From a virus: DNA of 64,000 nucleotides. The DNA is taken from positions 1 through 64,000 of the IMG/VR virus record IMGVR_UViG_3300033984_000293, one strand, 5' to 3'. Both the position numbers and the translations under genes were made by a program. Shown here piece after piece: positions 13,641 to 61,833 of the stretch (within the stretch, counting starts at the first letter, position 1; each line of letters starts with the position of its first letter). The notes beneath the pieces were generated by a model. The model was not told where the DNA came from and ran no database searches. It saw nothing but the letters and a program-made list of their open reading frames with translations.

Positions 13641-14861
13641 ATGAAAGAAAAAATAAATGTTTTAGTTCTCGCGTCAGATAAAACAGGCGTAGGGAAATTC
13701 AGGTCTTTAGACCCACATATTAAGTTACAAAATCTATATCCTGACGATTTCCACGTTGATATTGATTATGAACCAAGAATAAATGATATAAAGTATTGGG
13801 ATAAATACCAAATAATCCATGTGCATCGAAATATTGGTAGTCACTATGACCAAACACCATCAATTGTTAAATATTTAAAATCAATTGGTAAAGTGGTTGT
13901 TATTGATATTGATGATTATTGGTTACCAACTATTGACCATCCAATACATAGTATTATTGTTCAAAATAAAATTCACGAGAAAATTGTCGCAAACTTAAAA
14001 GAAGCTGATTGGGTTACAACCACAACTGACATATTCGCCAATGAAATTCGTAAAATCAATAAAAATGTTTTGGTATTACCAAACGCTATTGACCCTAATG
14101 AACAACAATTTAATCAACCAACACCACCGTCAGATAAAATCAGAATTGGTTGGTTAGGAGGGTCTTCACATTTACACGATTTAAATTTATTAGGTGATTT
14201 CGTTCAAAAGAATCAAGACATTAATGATAAATTACAATATGTAATTTGTGGGTTCGACACAAGAGGTTCTGTAACTGAAATTAATCCACAAACAGGTGAA
14301 CAAAAGAAAAGAGATATTCTTCCACACGAAACTGTATGGGTTAATTATGAGGGTATCTTTACAAATAATTACAAAACATTAGATGAAAATTACATTAAAT
14401 TCTTAAAGGAATTTAAAGAGAATGAATATATTTCAGATAAAGAATTACCATACGTTAGAGTTTGGACAAAACCGGTTAATTCTTACGCTATGAATTATTC
14501 AAAATTTGATATATCTTTGGCACCGATTAAAAATCACATCTTTAATAGAATGAAATCTCAATTAAAAGTAATTGAGGCAGGATTCTATAAGAAAGCATTA
14601 ATTGCGTCTGAAATTGGACCATATACTATAGATTTAAAACATTGTTTAAAAAATGGGGTATTCACCGACGAAGGAAATGCGATTTTAATCCCTGAAAGTA
14701 GGAACCATAGTGATTGGTCTAAATCAATTAAAAAATTAGTTCAGAATCCTGAAATGATAACTGAGTTAGGAGAGAGATTATATAATACCGTAAAAGACAA
14801 ATATGACCTTAATAAAGTAACGGTTACAAGAGCGGAGTTTTACAAAAGTTTAATCAAATAA
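13641..14861 (+). CDS. Glycosyltransferase, GT4/GT1 type (GT-B fold)
   Basis: A 406-residue protein. The N-terminal domain ends in VLVLPNAIDP, and the C-terminal Rossmann domain starts with IRIGWLGGSSHLHDL, the usual hinge and sugar-nucleotide domain start in GT-B enzymes. SQLKVIEAGFYKKALIAS occupies the position of the donor-binding EAxxxGxPVV motif. The transferred sugar is not predictable. A free-standing transcription unit begins here after the terminator. Such enzymes in phages modify virion proteins, host glycans or DNA; given the other glycan genes nearby, virion or host surface glycan is most likely. Confidence 0.75.
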   Translation: MKEKINVLVLASDKTGVGKFRSLDPHIKLQNLYPDDFHVDIDYEPRINDIKYWDKYQIIHVHRNIGSHYDQTPSIVKYLKSIGKVVVIDIDDYWLPTIDHPIHSIIVQNKIHEKIVANLKEADWVTTTTDIFANEIRKINKNVLVLPNAIDPNEQQFNQPTPPSDKIRIGWLGGSSHLHDLNLLGDFVQKNQDINDKLQYVICGFDTRGSVTEINPQTGEQKKRDILPHETVWVNYEGIFTNNYKTLDENYIKFLKEFKENEYISDKELPYVRVWTKPVNSYAMNYSKFDISLAPIKNHIFNRMKSQLKVIEAGFYKKALIASEIGPYTIDLKHCLKNGVFTDEGNAILIPESRNHSDWSKSIKKLVQNPEMITELGERLYNTVKDKYDLNKVTVTRAEFYKSLIK

Positions 14862-14871
14862 AAAACAAAAA

Positions 14872-15582
14872 ATGATAAAAATACCTTTAACTAAAATATT
14901 ATTTTTAGATATAGAAACTGTTGGAATTGAAAAAGATTATGACACTTGTTTAGAAAAGAGACCTGAACTCGCTAAACAATTTGACAAATATTACGATTGG
15001 TTTTTAAAACGATTTCCTGAAGATAAGGAAATTGAAGTTAACCAAAAAAATACAGTGTTTGCAACAAGAACAGCTTTAGTTCCTGAATTTGCAAAAATTG
15101 TTTGTATGAGTGTTGCGTTTGTAATGGATAATGGAGATATAAAAAAAACAACCTTTTCCGGAGACAACGAAAAAGAGGTATTAAAAGAATGTCAAAAATT
15201 ATTAGACCGTTGTGGTAAATTAGATTTTTTTCTATGTGGACATAATTTAAAAAACTTTGACATTCCAATGACAGCTAAAAGAATGATTATTAATGGATTA
15301 TTACCCCCATCAATTCTACCTTCTTACGATACAAAGCCGTGGGAAATCAAAGCTATTGATACTAGAGAAATTTGGCAATATGGTGCTTATACAGCGATTG
15401 GGTCATTAGACTTGATGTGTACTTCAATGGAAGTTCCATCACCAAAAGAGGGTGAAGTTACCGGAGATAAAGTACACGACGCATATTGGAACAAAGATAT
15501 GTTAGAAGAAATATCTGCATATTGTGAACGTGACGTATTAGTCTTAATTGACATAATAAAAAAATTAAAAGAATTAGAATAA
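14872..15582 (+). CDS. Predicted 3'-5' exonuclease, DnaQ/PolB-like
   Basis: A 236-residue protein with all three exonuclease motifs of the DEDDy type: Exo I D13-I-E15 (FLDIET), Exo II in CGHNLKNFDIP, and Exo III in YCERDV near the C-terminus. It probably trims or proofreads DNA, acting with replication or repair enzymes. Its stop overlaps the start of the dUTPase gene by one base, placing it with nucleotide-metabolism functions. Confidence 0.8.
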   Translation: MIKIPLTKILFLDIETVGIEKDYDTCLEKRPELAKQFDKYYDWFLKRFPEDKEIEVNQKNTVFATRTALVPEFAKIVCMSVAFVMDNGDIKKTTFSGDNEKEVLKECQKLLDRCGKLDFFLCGHNLKNFDIPMTAKRMIINGLLPPSILPSYDTKPWEIKAIDTREIWQYGAYTAIGSLDLMCTSMEVPSPKEGEVTGDKVHDAYWNKDMLEEISAYCERDVLVLIDIIKKLKELE

Positions 15583-16262
15583 TGTTTAACGAAGATTTAG
15601 ATTTTTTAAAAAACAAAGCGGAAGAATTAAAAAAATTAGCGAATATTGATTTAGATGATTTAAGTTATGATGATATAATGAGTGAATTTGGTTTGGATTT
15701 AAAACAACTTGAAGAAGATATGTTAAATTCAAAAACAAGATTACCATTAGGATTTGTAAAAATTCATCCCGACGCAATAACCCCGAAATATAATTATGAT
15801 AGTGATTCAGGTTTTGACCTACATTCTGTTGAAGATGTTACCATAGAAGCTTTCGGTCGAGCGTTAGTTCCTAGCGGACTATCCTTTGATATTAAAGATG
15901 GATATGAGATTCAAGTTAGGACTAAAAGTGGTTTAGCCATTAATCAGGGTCTTATGGTTTTAAACTCACCTGGAACTGTGGATTGTTTTTCAGAAGATAT
16001 GAAAATACTAACAATTAAGGGTGAAAAAACGATAAATGAATTAAATCTTAATGATGTTATCTTTTCATTTAATGAAAAGACATTAGAAATTGAAAAAGAT
16101 ATTATTACCAACATTTTTAACACGGAAGAACAGGAAATAATTGTTTTTGAAACTGACAATGGAATATTAGAGGTTACACCTAATAGTGAAGTTTATACTA
16201 AAAGAGGGTTATTGTTGGCTAAAGATGTGAAAGAAAATGATGAGATTATTGTTTTTTATTAA
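15582..16262 (+). CDS. dut: dUTPase N-terminal half fused to N-terminal split intein
   Basis: A 226-residue protein. Residues 1-50 are an acidic N-terminal extension. Residues 51-134 are trimeric dUTPase up to the active site: motif 1 SDSGFDL (75-80), motif 2 RTKSGLA (113-119) and the start of motif 3, LNSPGTVD (127-134). Residues 135-226 are an N-intein: Cys135 starts block A (CFSEDMKILT), then GEKTINELNLNDVIFSF. Block B is LEVTPNSEVYTKRG, in which the usual TxxH histidine is Ser202. The ORF stops at the point where inteins normally carry an endonuclease. dUTPase hydrolyses dUTP to dUMP; activity here needs joining to the C-half at 17170. Confidence 0.88.
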   Translation: MFNEDLDFLKNKAEELKKLANIDLDDLSYDDIMSEFGLDLKQLEEDMLNSKTRLPLGFVKIHPDAITPKYNYDSDSGFDLHSVEDVTIEAFGRALVPSGLSFDIKDGYEIQVRTKSGLAINQGLMVLNSPGTVDCFSEDMKILTIKGEKTINELNLNDVIFSFNEKTLEIEKDIITNIFNTEEQEIIVFETDNGILEVTPNSEVYTKRGLLLAKDVKENDEIIVFY

Positions 16263-16271
16263 CCTGTGTAA

Positions 16272-16278
16272 TATTTAT
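16272..16278 (+). promoter_or_regulatory. TATTTAT motif, candidate promoter of the endonuclease gene
   Basis: Reads ATATTTATC, 20 bases before the endonuclease start codon and just after the N-intein stop. It suggests that the endonuclease can be transcribed on its own. Confidence 0.4.
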
Positions 16279-16298
16279 CAATAAAGATAAAGGGTATA

Positions 16299-17183
16299 AT
16301 GGTAAAATGTTTAATTTGTGGGGTAGAAAAAAAATGTTCAATTGTTGAACATTTAAAATTTGTACATCAATTAAAATCTGATGAGTATAAAAAAATGTTC
16401 TTTGGTTCAAAAGTTAAATCAGATGACGAACTATTAAAAATGTCGGATAGAGCCAAAAAAAATTGGAGTAGTCCTGAGTATAAAGAATCTCAAATTAAAA
16501 TTAGAAAAATTACACATCAAGACCCAATTTTTAAAGAAAAGATGTCTGAAACTTTAAAGAAAAAACATAAAGAAAATCCGGAGTTATTCACAGGATTTAC
16601 TCAATGGTCTAAAACTGAGAAATATAAAGAATGGGTTATATCAAAAGAACGAACAGATAAAATATCTAAAACTAGTAAAAAAAGATGGGAGAATGACGAA
16701 TATCGAGAAAAAACCATCAATTCTATTAAGAAATCATTAAATGATGGAAGGTGTGATAAATCGTTAGAGTTTAGAGAAAAAATGTCAATAATTATTTCAA
16801 AATTATATGCAAATGGTACAATATCTAACGAATCAAATAAATATAAAACAGGTAAATATAATTCAAAAACAAATGAGGTATTTTTATATTCCTCATCATA
16901 TGAATTGGAATCTATGGTATTATTTGATGATTCCAACAATATAAAAAGTTGGACTAATAAACATGGAATTAGAATTAAATATTTTTATAATAATTTAAAT
17001 AGAAATTATGTTCCCGATTTTTTAGTTGAGTTTATAAATGGAGTTACTTATATTATTGAAATGAAAGGATGGAACACTGAAGAGGTTGATATTAAAGAAT
17101 ATTACACAAAAAAAACATACCCTAACTATAAAATATTCTATAGTGTTAACGAATTAAAACAATTTATAAATGAAAACAACTAA
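16299..17183 (+). CDS. Free-standing homing endonuclease between intein halves, PD-(D/E)xK type
   Basis: A 294-residue protein. The N-terminus has a zinc-finger pattern (CLICG...HLKFVH). The middle holds repeated helix units such as KISKTSKKRW and FREKMSIIISK, like the NUMOD DNA-binding modules of homing enzymes. The C-terminus has a restriction-like catalytic pattern: YELES, then VPDFLVEF and YIIEMKG, giving E...PD...ExK. It is in the same frame as the N-intein, separated by two in-frame stops, with its own ATG. Its 3' end overlaps the C-intein ORF by 14 bases in another frame. The likely role is to cut intein-less dUTPase genes so the whole insert spreads. Confidence 0.8.
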   Translation: MVKCLICGVEKKCSIVEHLKFVHQLKSDEYKKMFFGSKVKSDDELLKMSDRAKKNWSSPEYKESQIKIRKITHQDPIFKEKMSETLKKKHKENPELFTGFTQWSKTEKYKEWVISKERTDKISKTSKKRWENDEYREKTINSIKKSLNDGRCDKSLEFREKMSIIISKLYANGTISNESNKYKTGKYNSKTNEVFLYSSSYELESMVLFDDSNNIKSWTNKHGIRIKYFYNNLNRNYVPDFLVEFINGVTYIIEMKGWNTEEVDIKEYYTKKTYPNYKIFYSVNELKQFINENN

Positions 17184-17475
17184 AATACTTAAAATTTCAA
17201 AAACAAGAAAACAAACTTATGATATTACCGTTGAAAATAATCATAATTTTTTCTGTAACAATCATTTAATTCATAATTGTGGTTATACCGGAGAAGTTAA
17301 AGGAATTATATTTAACACCAATAATCATCCTGTAACAATAACTAAAGGAATGAAATTTGGTCAAGCGGTGTTGTGTCCCGTTGTAAATGGGGGTTGGGTT
17401 CATTTGGACCAAAGAGACAAAGTTACAGATAAAGAAAGAGGTGATAATGGGTTTGGCTCAACAGGATTAATATGA
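17170..17475 (+). CDS. dut: C-terminal split intein fused to dUTPase C-terminal half
   Basis: A 101-residue protein. Residues 1-36 are a C-intein: block F TYDITVENNHNFFCNNH and block G LIHN, ending with His35-Asn36. Cys37 is the +1 nucleophile. From Cys37 the dUTPase resumes with CGYTGEVKG, the second half of motif 3, and continues to motif 5 with GFGSTG at the C-terminus. Joining D134 of the N-half to C37 rebuilds VDCGYTGE, matching the canonical motif IDSDYRGE. It starts inside the end of the endonuclease gene and overlaps the next glycosyltransferase gene by 4 bases. Confidence 0.88.
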   Translation: MKTTKILKISKTRKQTYDITVENNHNFFCNNHLIHNCGYTGEVKGIIFNTNNHPVTITKGMKFGQAVLCPVVNGGWVHLDQRDKVTDKERGDNGFGSTGLI

Positions 17476-18980
17476 TAACAGTAATATACTCAACACATAA
17501 AGATGAACAATATAATAACAAATTTAAACAACATTTGTTACAAACCGTTGGTTTAAAAGACGTTCAAATTTTAGAATACAAAAACAATAATGAATTTAGT
17601 TTGGCTGAGATTTACAATAAAGGTATTTCTCAATCAATTTTTGATATTGTAATTTGTTGTCATAACGATATCAAATTAGAAAATGGTTGGGGAAAAAAAT
17701 TATTAAAAGATTTTTCAAATAACCCTGATTATGGGATTATTGGAAAAGCCGGTTCTTGTTATTTTCCTGAATCAGGGGTGTACTGGGAACGTATGCAACA
17801 AACAATGGTGGGACAAGTTTATCACCATCCCGATGGTCAAAATAAATGGTTAAGTAAATATTCTTTAAAATTACCATATTTAATTCCAGTAGTAACTATT
17901 GATGGGTTATTTATATCATTTGATAAAACAAAAATTAATCATCAATTTGATGAAACAATTGGAAGATTCCATTTTTACGACCATTTATTCTGTATTCCTA
18001 ATTATATAGATGGTATTAAAATTGGTGTAACATCTTCTTTTGAAATTACACATCAGTCCGTTGGGAGACCGAATCAAGAATTTTGGGAAAGTAAAGATAA
18101 ATTTATTGAAAAGTGGGGAAGTAATTTGCCATTAGATTTAAAACCTGAAAAAATTTACATTCCTGAAATAAAAGAAAAACCAATTAAGAATATTGGTAGA
18201 GTTGCGGTTATAATCCCAACCAAAGGAAATGTTGAAATGTTAAAAGAATGTGTTGATTCATTTTACAATTATTGTAATTCTGAGTTATTTGATATTTTTA
18301 TTGCGGACACCGGTTCTACGGATGATGAAAAAGAAATATTAAAAAACAATATAAAAAATTATAACAACATAAAACTAATTGAGTACGATTACTATAATTT
18401 TTCAAAAATTAATAATGATGTTGTAAAAAATCACGTAACAAATAAACACGAATTTTTATTATTCTGTAATAATGATATTAAATTATTAAATAATGTTATT
18501 TATGGAATGTTAAATATTTTTAAAACAACACCCAAAGTTGGTACCGTTGGGTGTCGACTTCATTTTGAAGATAATACTATTCAACACAACGGTGTTATTT
18601 TAGCTATAAATTCAAATAATATTTTTAATATTGGTCATGAAAATTTTAGTTGTTACTATAATTATATAATAAATAAAACAGAGGTTATTGGAAATACTGC
18701 AGCACTGATGATGATTAAAACAAATATATTTAAAGATAATGGTATGTTTAATGAGAATTATCTTGAGTGTTTTGAAGATGTAGAATTAAATTTTAAATGT
18801 GTAATAAGTGGATATAAAAATTATATGTGTGGTGATTTAGTTGGTTATCATTATGAAAGTAAAACTAGAAATAACGATAACAATAAATTAACAAAACAAA
18901 ACGAAGATTACTTAAAAAGATTATTACCATTTTTAAATAAAAATTATCTTAAACTATTAAAACTAATTAAAAAAAATTAA
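17472..18980 (+). CDS. Two-domain glycosyltransferase, second domain GT2 (GT-A fold)
   Basis: A 502-residue protein. Residues ~1-230 form a first GT-like domain (VICCHNDIKL, a DxD-like site). Residues ~240-500 form a clear GT2 domain: VAVIIPTKGN, then DTGSTDDE, FCNNDIKLL (DxD equivalent) and LECFEDVELNFK near the acceptor site, as in rhamnosyl- and related transferases. It begins a run of tightly packed glycan genes; its ends overlap both neighbours. Donor and acceptor sugars are not predictable. Confidence 0.78.
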   Translation: MITVIYSTHKDEQYNNKFKQHLLQTVGLKDVQILEYKNNNEFSLAEIYNKGISQSIFDIVICCHNDIKLENGWGKKLLKDFSNNPDYGIIGKAGSCYFPESGVYWERMQQTMVGQVYHHPDGQNKWLSKYSLKLPYLIPVVTIDGLFISFDKTKINHQFDETIGRFHFYDHLFCIPNYIDGIKIGVTSSFEITHQSVGRPNQEFWESKDKFIEKWGSNLPLDLKPEKIYIPEIKEKPIKNIGRVAVIIPTKGNVEMLKECVDSFYNYCNSELFDIFIADTGSTDDEKEILKNNIKNYNNIKLIEYDYYNFSKINNDVVKNHVTNKHEFLLFCNNDIKLLNNVIYGMLNIFKTTPKVGTVGCRLHFEDNTIQHNGVILAINSNNIFNIGHENFSCYYNYIINKTEVIGNTAALMMIKTNIFKDNGMFNENYLECFEDVELNFKCVISGYKNYMCGDLVGYHYESKTRNNDNNKLTKQNEDYLKRLLPFLNKNYLKLLKLIKKN

Positions 18981-19540
18981 TGATAACGTTTTTAGCAACA
19001 GCATATAAAGAGACAACAGATTCTTATCAATTTATAAGTTCTTTAATATTACAACAAAACCCAAATTGGGAGTGTATAATTCATTGTGATGAAAAAAATG
19101 AATATCTTGAAAAGTGTGTTAATTTTTTTAATTCGGATAAAATAAAAGTGATATATAATGAAACACCAACGTCTTATTGGGGACATTTTAACCGAAAAAA
19201 TACATTAGAATTAGTGAGTACTGAGTTTGTAATTCAAACGTCTATTCAGGACTATTATACACCTAACACCGTAAGTGAATTATTGTCAAATTTGACTGAT
19301 TGTGATATGGTTATGTATAATTGTATCCATAACCATTTTAATTATAATGTGTTAGACTCTACACCTATTAGATGTAGAATTGATTGGGGTTCATTTGTCA
19401 TAAGAACAGACATAGCCAAAAAAGTGGGGATTAATCATCCTGAATCACCATTTTGCGATGGTATTTTTGTTGAAGAATGTTTAAAACATCCAAATATAAG
19501 AACGAAAAAAATAAATAAAATATTAACTGTACATAATTAA
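18980..19540 (+). CDS. Short GT2-family glycosyltransferase
   Basis: A 186-residue protein with a GT-A type start (MITFLATAYKETTDSY, SLILQQNPNWECIIHCD). At about 190 residues it is shorter than usual GT2 enzymes (~250-300). The SIQDYYTP segment occupies the metal-binding site position. It may be a minimal domain or a reduced enzyme. It overlaps the upstream gene by one base and abuts the next. Confidence 0.65.
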   Translation: MITFLATAYKETTDSYQFISSLILQQNPNWECIIHCDEKNEYLEKCVNFFNSDKIKVIYNETPTSYWGHFNRKNTLELVSTEFVIQTSIQDYYTPNTVSELLSNLTDCDMVMYNCIHNHFNYNVLDSTPIRCRIDWGSFVIRTDIAKKVGINHPESPFCDGIFVEECLKHPNIRTKKINKILTVHN

Positions 19541-20530
19541 ATGAAGATATCGATTATTGGAACAGGGTGGGTTGGATGTCATTTGTCTAATGTGTTAAAA
19601 AACGAACACGATGTCACGCTATATGAAAAAAATGACAAAATATTTAATGGCACTTCTTACTATAATCAAAATAGATTACATTATGGTTATCATTATGCGA
19701 GAAACTACGAAACCAGAAATTTGTGTAAAACAACTTTTTATAGGTTTATAAACGACTATGGGTTTTGCGTGACCGATATTGATAAAAACTTTTATTGCGT
19801 ACCTAAAAAATTATCTTTAATTGATTTAAACACATATTTAAAAATTTTTGATGAGTATCCGTCTGAATTAACTTCCCATAATTTTAGTAATACTGAAGGA
19901 TGTATTTTAACAAATGAAAAACATATTAATTTTAAAAAAGTTAAAAATTATTTTCAAAAAGAATTAGATGGGTTAATAAAATATGAAACAATAGATAATG
20001 TAAAATTAGAACAACTATCTAAAAACTCGGATTTAGTTATTGATGCGACAAATAATTTTATGGGATTAATAAATACTGATTTTTTTTATGAGTTAACCAT
20101 AACATTAATTTATGATAAAATTAAATCAACTAATTTCGATTCTGTGACATTTGTTGATGGTGAACTATTTTCTATCTACCCTTATAAAGATAATAAGTTT
20201 ACATTAACCGATGTTAAATTAACACCATTAAAAAAGTTTTCATCAGTTAATGAAATCGATGAATATAAAAAATTAATAAATGATGAATTTATTTTAAATA
20301 AAATTAAAGAATTTGAAAATCGAGTTATGACATTTATGCCGGAATTCAACGAATACTTTAAATATGACTCTTATTTTTTATCAATAAAAAGTAAAGTAAA
20401 TGATGAGTCGGATAGTCGATATCCAGTAATAAAACAAACAAACAATATAATTTCATGTTTTACCGGAAAAATACAAGGAATTTATATTATTGAGGATTAT
20501 ATTTTAAACATAATTAATAATGACAAATGA
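19541..20530 (+). CDS. FAD/NAD-binding flavoprotein, possibly UDP-galactopyranose-mutase-like
   Basis: A 329-residue protein. It has an N-terminal dinucleotide-binding motif (ISIIGTGWVGCHL, GxGxxG) followed by an acidic end of strand two (VTLYEKN), as in FAD enzymes. SYYNQNRLHYGYHYARN, rich in Tyr and His, and a C-terminal CFTGKIQGIY resemble the flavin and substrate sites of small sugar-modifying or DAO-type flavoproteins. UDP-Gal mutase-like activity would fit the glycan cassette but is not proven. It overlaps the next gene by 11 bases. Confidence 0.55.
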   Translation: MKISIIGTGWVGCHLSNVLKNEHDVTLYEKNDKIFNGTSYYNQNRLHYGYHYARNYETRNLCKTTFYRFINDYGFCVTDIDKNFYCVPKKLSLIDLNTYLKIFDEYPSELTSHNFSNTEGCILTNEKHINFKKVKNYFQKELDGLIKYETIDNVKLEQLSKNSDLVIDATNNFMGLINTDFFYELTITLIYDKIKSTNFDSVTFVDGELFSIYPYKDNKFTLTDVKLTPLKKFSSVNEIDEYKKLINDEFILNKIKEFENRVMTFMPEFNEYFKYDSYFLSIKSKVNDESDSRYPVIKQTNNIISCFTGKIQGIYIIEDYILNIINNDK

Positions 20531-21566
20531 AGAATTATCGTTTCTATTTAACAAATACTTGAATAGAAATTTTACAAACCATGAACTAATTGTTCATGGT
20601 AAAAAAACAGTAAGTTTTTTAGAAAATGAAATATTAAATTGTAACGAATATTTAAAATTACCCACAAGAAATACTAACATAAATGATTTGAAAGTTGCCA
20701 TTTTATTAAGTGGTCATATCAGAAAAAACTCAATATTAAAAGGGATAAATCAATTTTGTAATAATGAAAATTTTCATGTTTTTATACATACATGGGATAA
20801 TATAGGATTGAAAGGTAGTGAAACCTTATTAAACGATTTATCCGCCGAAACTTCCGTGATTTCTGAAATAAACAAATTCACTAATATGAAAAACCATGAA
20901 ATAGATAATAATAAATATTGGATTGAATCTCAAGAAATTAAAGATAACTATTTTAATTTTTCATCTCCAGAAATTTTTATTAAATCTCAATTATATTCTA
21001 TTAATAAATCATATAAATTAATGGAACAATATTCAAAAGAAAATAATATTGAATATGATGTGGTTTTAAAAATAAGATTTGATTGTGATATGACAGAATT
21101 TAATTTAACAGATAAAATAATCTCAGACATAAAAACTCATGATATTATTTTTACCCCTAATATTGATAATCAACATACTCACATGGACTATGGTACATCT
21201 TGTTGGGCATGTGACAGTTTATATTATAAACATAATAGAAAAATGGTTCATATTTTTGACCACACAAATGTTATATGTGATTTATTTGCGTATGGGAGTA
21301 AAGATTCAATGAAACAATATTGTGATTTATATAATAATTATGATGAACTAAACAAATCTTTTTTTGATAAAAATCTAAAGCAATTTAAAAGAGTCCCTAA
21401 AAATATTGTTCATGAAGGTGGTAATTATAACTTAAAAGGTCATGAAGGTCACGTAGATTCATTATATTATTACTATTGCTCATATCCGGAAAGATTACTA
21501 CAATTTCAATTAAAAGATTATATGTTAGTTCAATCAAAAGAAATTAAATTAAACTTAGTTCGATGA
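20520..21566 (+). CDS. Putative glycosyltransferase-like protein, 348 aa
   Basis: After a ~55-residue N-terminal extension, KVAILLSGHIRKN is followed by FHVFIHTWDN and YDVVLKIRFDCDM. This order is seen in a family of poorly characterised GT-A-like proteins in polysaccharide clusters (SGxxR at the start, RxDxD as metal site). The sugar is unknown. It overlaps its neighbours on both sides (11 and 4 bases), so it is part of one operon. Confidence 0.55.
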   Translation: MTNEELSFLFNKYLNRNFTNHELIVHGKKTVSFLENEILNCNEYLKLPTRNTNINDLKVAILLSGHIRKNSILKGINQFCNNENFHVFIHTWDNIGLKGSETLLNDLSAETSVISEINKFTNMKNHEIDNNKYWIESQEIKDNYFNFSSPEIFIKSQLYSINKSYKLMEQYSKENNIEYDVVLKIRFDCDMTEFNLTDKIISDIKTHDIIFTPNIDNQHTHMDYGTSCWACDSLYYKHNRKMVHIFDHTNVICDLFAYGSKDSMKQYCDLYNNYDELNKSFFDKNLKQFKRVPKNIVHEGGNYNLKGHEGHVDSLYYYYCSYPERLLQFQLKDYMLVQSKEIKLNLVR

Positions 21567-39462: not shown

Positions 39463-41319
39463 TTATCTCAATTCTCTTAAATCGAATGTTCTAACACCAT
39501 CTACAGTAATTCTTCCGTAAAATCTGTTGTTCACCATTTTTTTCGCGTAACGAGTCATTATACCTTTAATCGGTGTAAAGTTGAATGGGTTGTACATTGT
39601 TGGTGTTAATTGTAATGGTACATACGGTGCGTAGATGTATCCTGTGTCTAACAATGATGTTCCTTTGTGTCCAATTAACACTTGGTTAGCTGGGAAGTAA
39701 GGGTCACGGTAAACTTGGTAACGTCCTGCTAATGTTCCAACTCTTTCAATACCCATGTTATATTGGTCTTGTTCAGGAGAAGCATTAGATACGTGGAAGT
39801 ACTCTAAATCATCAAAGATAGCAGAAACCTCAGAAGATACAACAATCCAGTTTGCTCCACCTCTTAAAGTAGATTTGTGGATTTGTGCAGACAATTGGTT
39901 AATTGCTGTAATTAATGTTTGGTTCCAATCTTTTTGAGTGTAAGAAGTTACTTGAGAAATTCTTCTCCAACCATTGTAATCCCATCTCAAGTTCCATGCA
40001 GCACCTTTACGTAAATCTCTTAAGATTTCACGGTCAATTTCTGCCGCAACTTGCTCAGATAATAAAGCTGTTAATTCAGCTTCAGCATCGATGTTGTGGA
40101 AAGCTGCAACGTCTTGAGCTAACTCAGGAGACCATTGTGCTCTTAATTTTCTTTCTGTAACTGATACAGTAACTGAATCTAAATCGAAAGAAACCTCACC
40201 GATTTTATCTTCAAATTCTAATTCTTCATAACGTCTGAAAACAGCTTTAAATGAAGTTGTTGCTAATGCTTCAGAAATAGTTGTACCTGTGTAACCATCT
40301 AACGATGAAGAATCACAATCAGCACATACTGGACAAGATAAATCAACTTCTAACCAAATACAACCATCAACGTCACATACATTTTTGAATGAACCACCGT
40401 TACCAGTAGATGCAAATGTTGTTTGAGTTGTGTTACCATATTTCACAATACCTCTACCATAGATTTGAGTTACAACTCTAAATAATAAAGCTCCTGTAGA
40501 TACAGCACATGGTGAACTAGCGTCAACTGTTAAACCAGCTCCTGTATAGATAATTAAATCAGATAAGAATGATTCAGTATCCATTTCGTTACCATCAGGT
40601 CCGATTAATTTTCCTGCACCTGTGTCAGCAAAACCACACATTTTAATGATAACTTTTCTTGTGTTACCTGAAGCAATTACTGCTGCTCCATCAGTTGTTC
40701 CTGAAATAACTGCATCAACTAAAACTCCACCTGTCCATTTTTGGATAGTTGTTGTTGCTGTGATAGCTGACCAACGACCTTTAGAATAATCAAATAATCC
40801 TGGTGGGTCTAAACTTGGTTCGTTACCTTCATAGAATAAATCATAAAGATTTTTTTCATATACTGGGTTGTTTGAGCCTGAACCTGCTGTGTAACCTTCA
40901 CTTGGAGAACCTGGATAATTTCCTGGAGACCCGATTGGTGCGTAGTGCTCACCTGAATACTGACCGTCAATACCGTCTTTGTATCCTTGAATTTTTGGTA
41001 CAAAATAGAATAATTTACCGATTGGTAAGTTCATTGCTTGTACAGAAACGATATCATTCGCTAATAATTTAGAGAATACTCTTCTTACGATAGGAAATAC
41101 AACAGTTTCAAATGAACCTGAAGACCCGTCAGAAGTTGCTTCGTTTATTAAGAAAGACGCTTGGTTCTCATATAATTGAGCTACGTTTTCTCTTAAGTGA
41201 CCTTTAAGACCTTCAAGAAATCCTAATTTGTCCCATTTGTTGATTGTGTCTTCTTTAATAACTTTAAGGTGTTTTAACCCGATGTTACCAACTAGACCTG
41301 ATTCTAATAATGCTCCCAT
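39463..41319 (-). CDS. Major capsid protein, T4 gp23-like
   Basis: A 618-residue protein. The segment KLRAQWSPELAQDVAAFHNI, then DAEAELTALLSEQVAAEIDREI, matches the central gp23 pattern (SIELAQDLRAVHGMDADAEL). IVRRVFSKLLANDIVSVQAMN and YAPYVPLQLTPTMYNPFNF match the N- and C-terminal HK97-fold landmarks. FLINE60-A61 corresponds to the T4 maturation site (hydrophobic-x-Glu, then Ala at residue 65/66), so the mature subunit should start at A61. It is longer than T4 gp23 (521 residues), with an insertion around residues 190-370 that includes a CDVDGCIWLEVDLSCPVCADC cysteine cluster. GC content is visibly higher than in its neighbours. Confidence 0.95.
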   Translation of the reverse strand: MGALLESGLVGNIGLKHLKVIKEDTINKWDKLGFLEGLKGHLRENVAQLYENQASFLINEATSDGSSGSFETVVFPIVRRVFSKLLANDIVSVQAMNLPIGKLFYFVPKIQGYKDGIDGQYSGEHYAPIGSPGNYPGSPSEGYTAGSGSNNPVYEKNLYDLFYEGNEPSLDPPGLFDYSKGRWSAITATTTIQKWTGGVLVDAVISGTTDGAAVIASGNTRKVIIKMCGFADTGAGKLIGPDGNEMDTESFLSDLIIYTGAGLTVDASSPCAVSTGALLFRVVTQIYGRGIVKYGNTTQTTFASTGNGGSFKNVCDVDGCIWLEVDLSCPVCADCDSSSLDGYTGTTISEALATTSFKAVFRRYEELEFEDKIGEVSFDLDSVTVSVTERKLRAQWSPELAQDVAAFHNIDAEAELTALLSEQVAAEIDREILRDLRKGAAWNLRWDYNGWRRISQVTSYTQKDWNQTLITAINQLSAQIHKSTLRGGANWIVVSSEVSAIFDDLEYFHVSNASPEQDQYNMGIERVGTLAGRYQVYRDPYFPANQVLIGHKGTSLLDTGYIYAPYVPLQLTPTMYNPFNFTPIKGIMTRYAKKMVNNRFYGRITVDGVRTFDLRELR

Positions 41320-45539: not shown

Positions 45540-47396
45540 TCAATCATTTAAGATTTTATCCAATTCTTTCTCGATATCACCTAAAGAATTTCTTGCTCGA
45601 GATAAATCAATATACGAATCATCTTCAGTTAAACTACGGCTTTCCAATAAAATGTTCATATTCTCCCGTGTTTTTGATTCAGGTGTTAATTCTGCTTCAC
45701 CACCAGCTTCAGGCGCTCCACCCGGTTCAGGTGCTCCACCCGGTTCAGGTGCTCCACCTAATTCAGACTCAAGACCACCTAAGGCACCTCCTCCACCAGC
45801 AGGTGGTGGTGCAGGAACAGCTCCACCAACAGCGGTTGTTCCGGATTTACTTGCGTATAATTTATCAATAGTATCAAATACTCCTGTATGAGTGATAATT
45901 GTTGCGGTATTAGTTAACTCAGCACCAACGGCTTTTTCAATACGTTGTTGTTGTAAATCTAATTTAATTTCTTCATCAGAGAATCCTAACACATGTTTTT
46001 TAGCCCATGTTACCGATACCGGAGCAATACCTTCGATAGCAGCCACTGCGTCTTTATACAATAAAATTTTCTCTTTCCAAATATCGATTTTTAATAAATC
46101 GGCTTGTGAAGATGGGTTAGTTAATGCCAATGTAAAGTTTGATAATTCATCCTCAAACCCTAATAAAAATAAATGAATAATTGCGATTTTGTTTAATTCT
46201 GCAATCATCGATTTTTGTATTCTATTAATTGTTCTTGCGAAACGAATATCCATTAATGATAGATTTTTACCATCACCAGTAACTTCTTCAAAACCTAAGA
46301 ATGCTTTAGGTACACGAAGAGCGGTTAACAATTTCTTTTGGATGTATTCAATATCCGCAATCTCAGCTAAGTTTTGTGCTCCCGGTAATGTATCAATTGG
46401 GTTTGGTGCCGCAGGGTCACGAACAGGAATAAAGTAATCTTGGTCAACAGCCATTTGATTGAATCTCATATCAACATTACCTGTTTGAGAATCCACAACT
46501 TGACTTCTTTTAAATTTATTAGCAACACGTTGTACATACGGTTCAACATCTTTATCATCCATGTTACCAACATAAACTTTAAAAACACGTCTTTCAGGTG
46601 CTCTTGATGTTCTATAAATTAACATCGCATCTTCAGACAATAATAATTGTTTCCATATACGTCTTGCTTTCTCTAACATAGAAGTACCATAAGGAAGTTT
46701 TCTATCATCACCTAGTAATCTAAAGTGAGCTATCTCCCATGAATTAAACTCCATGTCTTTAACTTTCCATTTGAAACGTAAACCCCTATTTTCAAGTGGT
46801 TCATCAACATTTGCCGCCTTCGCAGCCATACCACGTTCCAAACGTTCAATTTCAATGTTTGGTAATTGCATACATCCAACAATACCTTTTTCAGCATCCA
46901 ATTTTAGATACACAAAATTATCCCCATATTTACAAGTGTTTCTTGTCCACATAGGTAAGTTAGTATTTAAATCTAAAACATTGTTAAATAAATCCGTTAA
47001 GATACTTTTTATTCTTTTTGATTCAGAATAAATTTGTAACATATAACCATTTTGGTCAACAGTTGTTGATTCCTCACCATAGATATCTAATGCCGCAGAA
47101 ATTTCAGGAGTGTACTCCATAGATTCATAATCATAAAATGACGCTAAACGAGTTGGTTCATAATATACCGCTTGGGTATATAAGTTACTCTCAATTTTAG
47201 TCCATTGGTTGGCTAAGTAATAAGTTTGTTGTGCCTGTAATTTTTCTCTCTCGTATTCGGCTTTAGATGTGGTTTTTAATAATTCCTTCTTATCTAACTT
47301 ATATACGGGATAATCTTGGTTCAATAACGAGTTCGGTCCAAATGCTTTGGATAATCTTTGCCAAACTGTTAAATCATTATTTTGATTGTTTTCCAT
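45540..47396 (-). CDS. Portal protein, T4 gp20-like
   Basis: A 618-residue protein. Landmarks are SFYDYESMEYTPEISAALDI, GEESTTVDQNGYML, TCKYGDNFVYLKL, IAHFRLLGDDRKLPYGTSML, MLIYRTSRAPERRVFKVYVG and KKLLTALRVPKAFLGFEE, all in T4-type portal order. The C-terminus carries a Gly/Ala/Pro-rich linker with three GGAPEPGG-like repeats and then a helical tail (TRENMNILLESRSLTE). The portal forms the dodecameric DNA gate and terminase docking site. Confidence 0.93.
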   Translation of the reverse strand: MENNQNNDLTVWQRLSKAFGPNSLLNQDYPVYKLDKKELLKTTSKAEYEREKLQAQQTYYLANQWTKIESNLYTQAVYYEPTRLASFYDYESMEYTPEISAALDIYGEESTTVDQNGYMLQIYSESKRIKSILTDLFNNVLDLNTNLPMWTRNTCKYGDNFVYLKLDAEKGIVGCMQLPNIEIERLERGMAAKAANVDEPLENRGLRFKWKVKDMEFNSWEIAHFRLLGDDRKLPYGTSMLEKARRIWKQLLLSEDAMLIYRTSRAPERRVFKVYVGNMDDKDVEPYVQRVANKFKRSQVVDSQTGNVDMRFNQMAVDQDYFIPVRDPAAPNPIDTLPGAQNLAEIADIEYIQKKLLTALRVPKAFLGFEEVTGDGKNLSLMDIRFARTINRIQKSMIAELNKIAIIHLFLLGFEDELSNFTLALTNPSSQADLLKIDIWKEKILLYKDAVAAIEGIAPVSVTWAKKHVLGFSDEEIKLDLQQQRIEKAVGAELTNTATIITHTGVFDTIDKLYASKSGTTAVGGAVPAPPPAGGGGALGGLESELGGAPEPGGAPEPGGAPEAGGEAELTPESKTRENMNILLESRSLTEDDSYIDLSRARNSLGDIEKELDKILND

Positions 47397-61432: not shown

Positions 61433-61826
61433 GGGAGTGACACGGAATTGACTATTCGTAATAGTTATTCGGGGCACGTAGTGAGATGTTCTCTATCACT
61501 TAAATCTATGGGTACAACAATTTAGACGGAAACGTTTTAAACAAAATGGCTCTAGTAGGTCTTGTACGTCAAGATGAGCTTGTGAACGTAGCGTAAGCAA
61601 ACACACATTGGGGTCGGTGGACATATAACCCAGCAACAGGAGTCCTTAAAAAGGTGTGGTACCTATCCGAAAAGGTACAAGTGGAGGATTAGTTCTCAGT
61701 AAACCGAACCACTCTAAAAATAAGGGAATTGTGAAATTTTGGATTGTTAGCTTAAACAATATCCTAAACGTGTAGTCCTTAATAGGTAATACAAGTAACA
61801 CCGGAGTTCGAGTCTCCGCACTTCCA
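61433..61826 (+). ncRNA. ssrA: Transfer-messenger RNA (tmRNA)
   Basis: A one-piece tmRNA of ~394 bases. The 5' GGGAGTG (61433-61439) pairs with 3' CACTTCC (61819-61825, one G-T), followed by discriminator A61826. CCA is not encoded. The T arm is CGGAG-TTCGAGT-CTCCG (61802-61818), and the D-arm-like ACGGAATTGAC follows the 5' end. The tag reading frame most likely starts at GGT (61558) after CTAGTA and ends at TAA 61594-61596, encoding GLVRQDELVNVA. The AAAATGGCT before it resembles the region upstream of the Bacteroidetes resume codon, which also begins with Gly. Known tags end in LAA; this one ends in VNVA. tmRNA with SmpB frees stalled ribosomes and tags the nascent chain. Confidence 0.88.
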
Positions 61827-61833
61827 CAAAAAG

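Follow-up and report, generated by a model that had tools for sequence, protein, structure and literature searches.

Genes fractured by split inteins, with an endonuclease gene embedded in the break, were reportedly described in phage or environmental DNA by Dassa et al. in 2009 (NAR 37:2560; cited in PMC12350094). Among better-known split inteins, C-inteins of the NrdJ-1, gp41-1 and IMPDH-1 type are about 36–40 amino acids long. Here we analyzed a 64,000-nucleotide stretch (the window), positions 1–64,000 of the IMG/VR record IMGVR_UViG_3300033984_000293 from an uncultured phage, in which a dUTPase gene is broken within its motif 3. With high probability, the interruption is a mobile fractured-gene element, composed of a split intein and its own homing endonuclease gene, from which a dUTPase would be produced by trans-splicing. 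The kind of arrangement is already known; what is new is dUTPase as the host gene and this class of nuclease. Its intein shares the canonical split position of NrdJ-1, gp41-1 and IMPDH-1, with a long N-intein and a short C-intein (PMC7090010). An original prediction, made from the letters of the window, knew of no described split intein in dUTPase, which is consistent with our finding none in the open literature searched, Dassa et al. 2009 and InBase lying outside that search.

Anatomy of the split dUTPase gene

The locus consists of three plus-strand open reading frames (ORFs) of 226 amino acids (15582–16262), 294 amino acids (16299–17183) and 101 amino acids (17170–17475). On re-checking, the ORF and intein positions of the original prediction were exact. 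The features are the following:

15582–15983, plus strand: dUTPase N-extein, 134 codons, ending ...NSPGTVD at the motif-3 aspartate (profiles, PDB match, alignment to 95%-identical intact dUTPases until base 15983)
15984–16262, plus strand: N-intein, 92 codons, Cys1–Tyr92 (C135–Y226 of the ORF, 15984–16259), with its own TAA at 16260–16262
16263–16298, plus strand: spacer, 36 nt, conserved in 12 alleles
16299–17183, plus strand: putative homing endonuclease gene, 294 amino acids (profiles, fold, substitution rates)
16308–16367, plus strand: zinc finger C4-x2-C7-x10-H18-x4-H23 of that protein, its four ligands invariant in 14 alleles
16902–17066, plus strand: nuclease active site E202, (P)D240, E254-x-K256, invariant in 14 alleles
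17170–17277, plus strand: C-intein, 36 codons, ending LIHN, with its own ATG and a 14-nt overlap with the nuclease gene
17278–17475, plus strand: dUTPase C-extein, 65 codons, beginning CGYTGE (+1 Cys), with motif 5 GFGSTG (profiles; intact relatives realign from 17278–17280)

When joined, the exteins matched the full TIGR00576 profile (5.4e-38, 129.9 bits, curated cut-off 102.55) as well as PF00692 (2.6e-20, 73 bits, cut-off 22), and the nearest PDB entries were ordinary dUTPases (8hrv, 1e-33). Each half taken singly also gave a dUTPase match. The break separates the motif-3 Asp from the +1 Cys, and the scoring of the joined exteins as a trimeric dUTPase by both profiles bears out the predicted insertion at motif 3. 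Besides the split gene, no PF00692 dUTPase was present in the assembled sequence of 8 of 8 records; as IMG/VR records are fragments, the designation "only dUTPase" holds for the assembled part. The sole candidate for a second enzyme in these records was a partial all-alpha dUTPase_2-like match in G006 (L and G numbers are our own handles). The earlier claim that dUTPase activity would need trans-splicing is supported, splicing itself being predicted from sequence.

Two ORFs encode the N-intein and the C-intein separately, and in each the intein half is joined to a portion of the same host protein. The joined intein matched PF14890 (4.8e-7, 30.1 bits, under the curated cut-off of 35.8), TIGR01445 (1.5e-4) and TIGR01443 (0.0077, exceeding the TIGR01443 cut-off), the nearest solved sequence being that of NrdJ-1 (8ubs, E 1e-7). 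The predicted fold of the N-intein (predicted local distance difference test score of 86) had the Npu DnaE split intein as its first PDB match (7e-4), and further top matches were inteins, intein-like domains and one Hedgehog autoprocessing domain. The profile search of both halves and this fold prediction support the naturally split intein that had been proposed. The block A nucleophile, penultimate His, terminal Asn and +1 Cys/Ser/Thr are all present, and the splicing residues other than the block B His are kept in 23 N-inteins and their partner C-inteins. Moreover, the two halves are of opposite charge in 14 of 14 pairs (N-intein −7 to −14, C-intein +1 to +6).

The protein encoded between the halves combines a C2H2 Ros/MucR-like finger, a helical middle and a TnsA-like PD-(D/E)XK nuclease. 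A Foldseek search of the PDB gave three significant matches, all of them TnsA (1t0f, 1f1z; 1.8e-4), and the TnsA-like Pfam family was matched by 10 of 14 members, while the nearest viral structure was an endonuclease of Bacillus phage Moonbeam (KM236246; 4.5e-13). The ratio of nonsynonymous to synonymous substitution rates (omega) is 0.10–0.16 between close alleles, indicating that the nuclease is maintained as a protein. The PD...ExK core is present in the fold, the mobility pattern of the insert is compatible with homing, and PD-(D/E)XK is a recognized homing endonuclease family (PMC6083498, PMC3943268), to which we assign the middle gene as a putative homing endonuclease. Distant relatives of the nuclease (L240–L280) were considered as other fractured genes and rejected, as a scan of their neighborhood for C-intein motifs was empty save for copies of the dUTPase element itself (L260, L268, L273). 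A search of the window's own record for other inteins or nuclease paralogues found none. The spacer of the window (16263–16298) and of 11 other alleles is highly conserved and non-coding (ATACTATTTATCAATAAAGATAAAG.GTAT), with a foldable hairpin directly before the nuclease start that might control nuclease translation. The idea of an RNA switch was dropped, there being a single covarying pair and z scores of −0.3 to −2.3.

Empty sites, mobility and nuclease loss

The dUTPases of L003–L005, approximately 95% identical to that of the window, match the window through base 15983 and again from 17280, with Asn at +1, which defines the insert as 15984–17277 (1,294 bp). These genes are uninterrupted relatives of the kind proposed as a check in the original prediction, and carry the exact empty site. 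Together with an endonuclease gene in its own frame between the halves, they support the fractured-gene layout. The +1 position is Asn or Ser in all intact phage relatives checked (31/31) and Cys in the intein-bearing alleles, with Ser in L139. Some intact bacterial dUTPases naturally carry Cys at this position, which makes the spliced product plausible as an enzyme.

The order N-half, stop, nuclease and C-half recurred in 38 of 38 further contigs found by an N-half search, and identical halves and middle gene were present in six other IMG/VR contigs. Of 14 alleles whose insert was measured, 13 had lengths of 1293–1319 bp (1293, 1294, 1298, 1299, 1308 or 1319), covering all three frames; in L111, where the nuclease gene is shortened, the insert was 1234 bp. 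Since the inserts vary in length modulo three, the halves cannot be connected by any one reading frame. The original prediction named sequence errors that hide a continuous ORF as its possible undoing. We found nothing in favor of such an artefact of assembly or sequencing, whether of an intact gene or of one with a contiguous intein, and give it practically no weight: it is refuted by the recurrence in 38 contigs, and the structure is shared by contigs of many metagenomes and by divergent alleles that conserve the overlap and the spacer. In the 11 loci read from a scan of bacterial genome contigs for the split form, the dUTPases were intact, and among 22 cultured-phage records matching the intein none had an annotated dUTPase.

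Insert and exteins have different histories. Among the window, L089 and L090, the inserts share 85–99% DNA identity versus 60–78% for the exteins, and synonymous divergence (dS) is 0.55–0.71 for N-intein and nuclease versus 1.05–2.0 for the exteins, with omega values of 0.0–0.17 for intein and nuclease. On the extein tree, the presence of the intein requires six changes, five of them forced by well-supported branches. The window is nested among the intein-free L003, L006, L007 and L013, and L111 is sister to the intein-free L082, and L089 is nested among the intein-free L049, L051, L059 and L061, its insert being nearly identical to that of the window. Such a conflict, with six changes and a lower dS in the insert, is the pattern predicted by homing at a fixed site. 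Beside the insertion, the signal of identity by distance was too unclear to claim a co-conversion tract.

Further split inteins of the dUTPase site, found by a C-intein search, differ in what lies between the halves. L297, L319 and L349 have a nuclease of the same type as the window. L328, L341 and L348 carry a different N-intein and a nuclease that by eye looks like Vsr/EDxHD (motif ..IECYGDYWHCNP..), so that two nuclease classes are predicted to target one dUTPase site. The contigs L268 and L273, which overlap in their nuclease sequence, have a frameshifted nuclease and keep the intein halves. Finally, in L309, L310, L311, L313 and L314 the nuclease is deleted, the 65 nt between the halves being remains of its 3' end, and both halves are still separate ORFs. 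When two of these nuclease-less alleles were compared, omega was 0.06 for the N-intein, and the C-intein showed 0 nonsynonymous differences. With no nuclease to spread the intein, function alone would keep it intact, and this purifying selection is the strongest sequence evidence for the proposed trans-splicing. One site thus displays the whole homing cycle: empty, intein with nuclease, nuclease decayed, and nuclease deleted with the split retained. The nuclease-less alleles also make the question of why split inteins stay split directly testable.

Proposed mechanism, block B and alternative explanations

The activities that we infer for the element would operate as follows. When phages co-infect a cell, the nuclease would cut the conserved motif-3 sequence of those dUTPase alleles that have no intein; repair would then copy the entire 1.29-kb insert along with the codon for Cys+1, as the tree conflict and the empty sites suggest. 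The two polypeptides would bind via the acidic N-intein and the basic C-intein, and trans-splicing by Cys1, the penultimate His, the terminal Asn and Cys+1 would yield a 199-amino-acid product with predicted dUTPase activity, the sole change at the junction being a Cys, instead of Asn, following the catalytic Asp.

Block B of the window N-intein reads TPNS where TxxH is expected. The block B His is the most conserved single intein residue, with few natural exceptions (PMC6333167, PMC7765530). In an alignment with other phage split inteins, it was absent from 23 of 23 dUTPase-site N-inteins, which have TPNS, TLNS, TSNT, TENT, TPGT or TDNT, or PxxK in the L328 group, and present in 15 of 15 loci at other sites (ribonucleotide reductase, DNA polymerase and others; near-copies included), as well as in the fractured genes of cultured phages. 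The 23 cases are not independent and would reflect at least one, perhaps two, events of loss. Residue −1 at the dUTPase site is in every case the motif-3 Asp, which we take to be a catalytic residue of the enzyme. We hypothesize a link between this Asp and the absence of the His; a possible, if doubtful, explanation is that the His was given up because the catalytic Asp-1 substitutes for it by putting strain on the N-terminal scissile bond or activating it, or to prevent premature Asp-1 cleavage. Bulky −1 residues have been reported to be able to compensate for absence of the block B His (PMC6333167, PMC7765530). If this explanation of the lost His is true, splicing would naturally have recruited a catalytic residue of the host protein, a possibility that Friedel et al. 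anticipated on the basis of mutants (PMC6333167). The 23 His-less sequences constitute a natural set for testing extein-assisted catalysis, and the family possibly offers new orthogonal split inteins.

Some observations weigh against a functional fractured gene. The absent block B His weakens the canonical class 1 label but not the split-intein claim, as rare natural exceptions have been described (PMC6333167, PMC7765530). Part of the intein profile matches fall short of curated cut-offs, and two C-exteins, each in a short single contig, look damaged, that of L089 (L089:3349–3615) by an in-frame stop before motif 5 and that of L111 (L111:2076–2246) by an internal deletion that removed most of it. 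The missing His and these two C-exteins would also fit a decaying insert, with halves that no longer splice, a dead dUTPase and a phage that depends on the host enzyme. We consider such decay unlikely, as purifying selection acts on exteins and inteins alike, even in alleles without a nuclease, in which the intein cannot be maintained by homing, as the remaining splicing residues are kept over the 23 N-inteins and their C-inteins, and as the 8 records, apart from the partial match in G006, have no second dUTPase.

dUTPase forms trimers whose subunits share active sites, and the halves of split inteins associate tightly, so unligated halves held together by the intein halves might form an active enzyme through fragment complementation. 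This seems even less probable than decay, because the break adjoins the catalytic Asp and 92 + 36 extra residues would sit in the active site, and because the +1 nucleophile, terminal Asn and penultimate His are conserved though needless in that case. A mobile, trans-splicing fractured gene is the explanation that we favor over both.

Genomic surroundings and comparison with known systems

In the window, glycosyltransferase-like and other sugar-related genes surround the split dUTPase (13641–21566), and the major head protein (39463–41319) and portal (45540–47396) genes lie on the minus strand. A full-length tmRNA match (RF00023, 65.7 bits, E 2e-23) at 61433–61829, plus strand, was not called by ARAGORN. 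At other loci, a UvsX/RecA gene that adjoins the split dUTPase also has a split-intein C-half (L268:74–805), a GIY-YIG/NUMOD-like endonuclease ORF lies immediately upstream of an exonuclease gene near the split dUTPase (L091:1715–2548), and another intein_Nterm match (42 bits) lies within a 939-amino-acid open frame in L202 and L203 (records G004 and G005).

The fractured genes of Dassa et al. are reportedly alike in combining a conserved nucleotide-metabolism or replication gene with a split intein whose halves flank a free-standing endonuclease gene; they differ in having an EDxHD/Vsr-like nuclease, whereas here the host is dUTPase, the nuclease is TnsA-like PD-(D/E)XK with a C2H2 finger, and the block B His is missing. 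NrdJ-1 retains that His in our alignment (TPDH versus TPNS in the window). Klebsiella phage KP13-7 nrdA, Proteus phage PM2 uvsW, and the DNA polymerase and uvsX of Vibrio phage VmeM-32 have the same general layout and related inteins, but other host genes, other endonuclease genes and the block B His in all. Natural inteins without it include Tko CDC21-1 and its relatives (PMC6333167, PMC7765530); Tko CDC21-1 is archaeal and Lys compensates, whereas the dUTPase-site inteins are a split family in which Ser or Thr stands at the His position (PxxK in three members) and residue −1 is Asp. On the nuclease side, the Moonbeam gene has, by its annotation, no flanking intein halves, unlike that of the window, and TnsA is the nearest solved fold, yet a transposase subunit. 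The fractured-gene arrangement thereby gains one host gene and one nuclease class.
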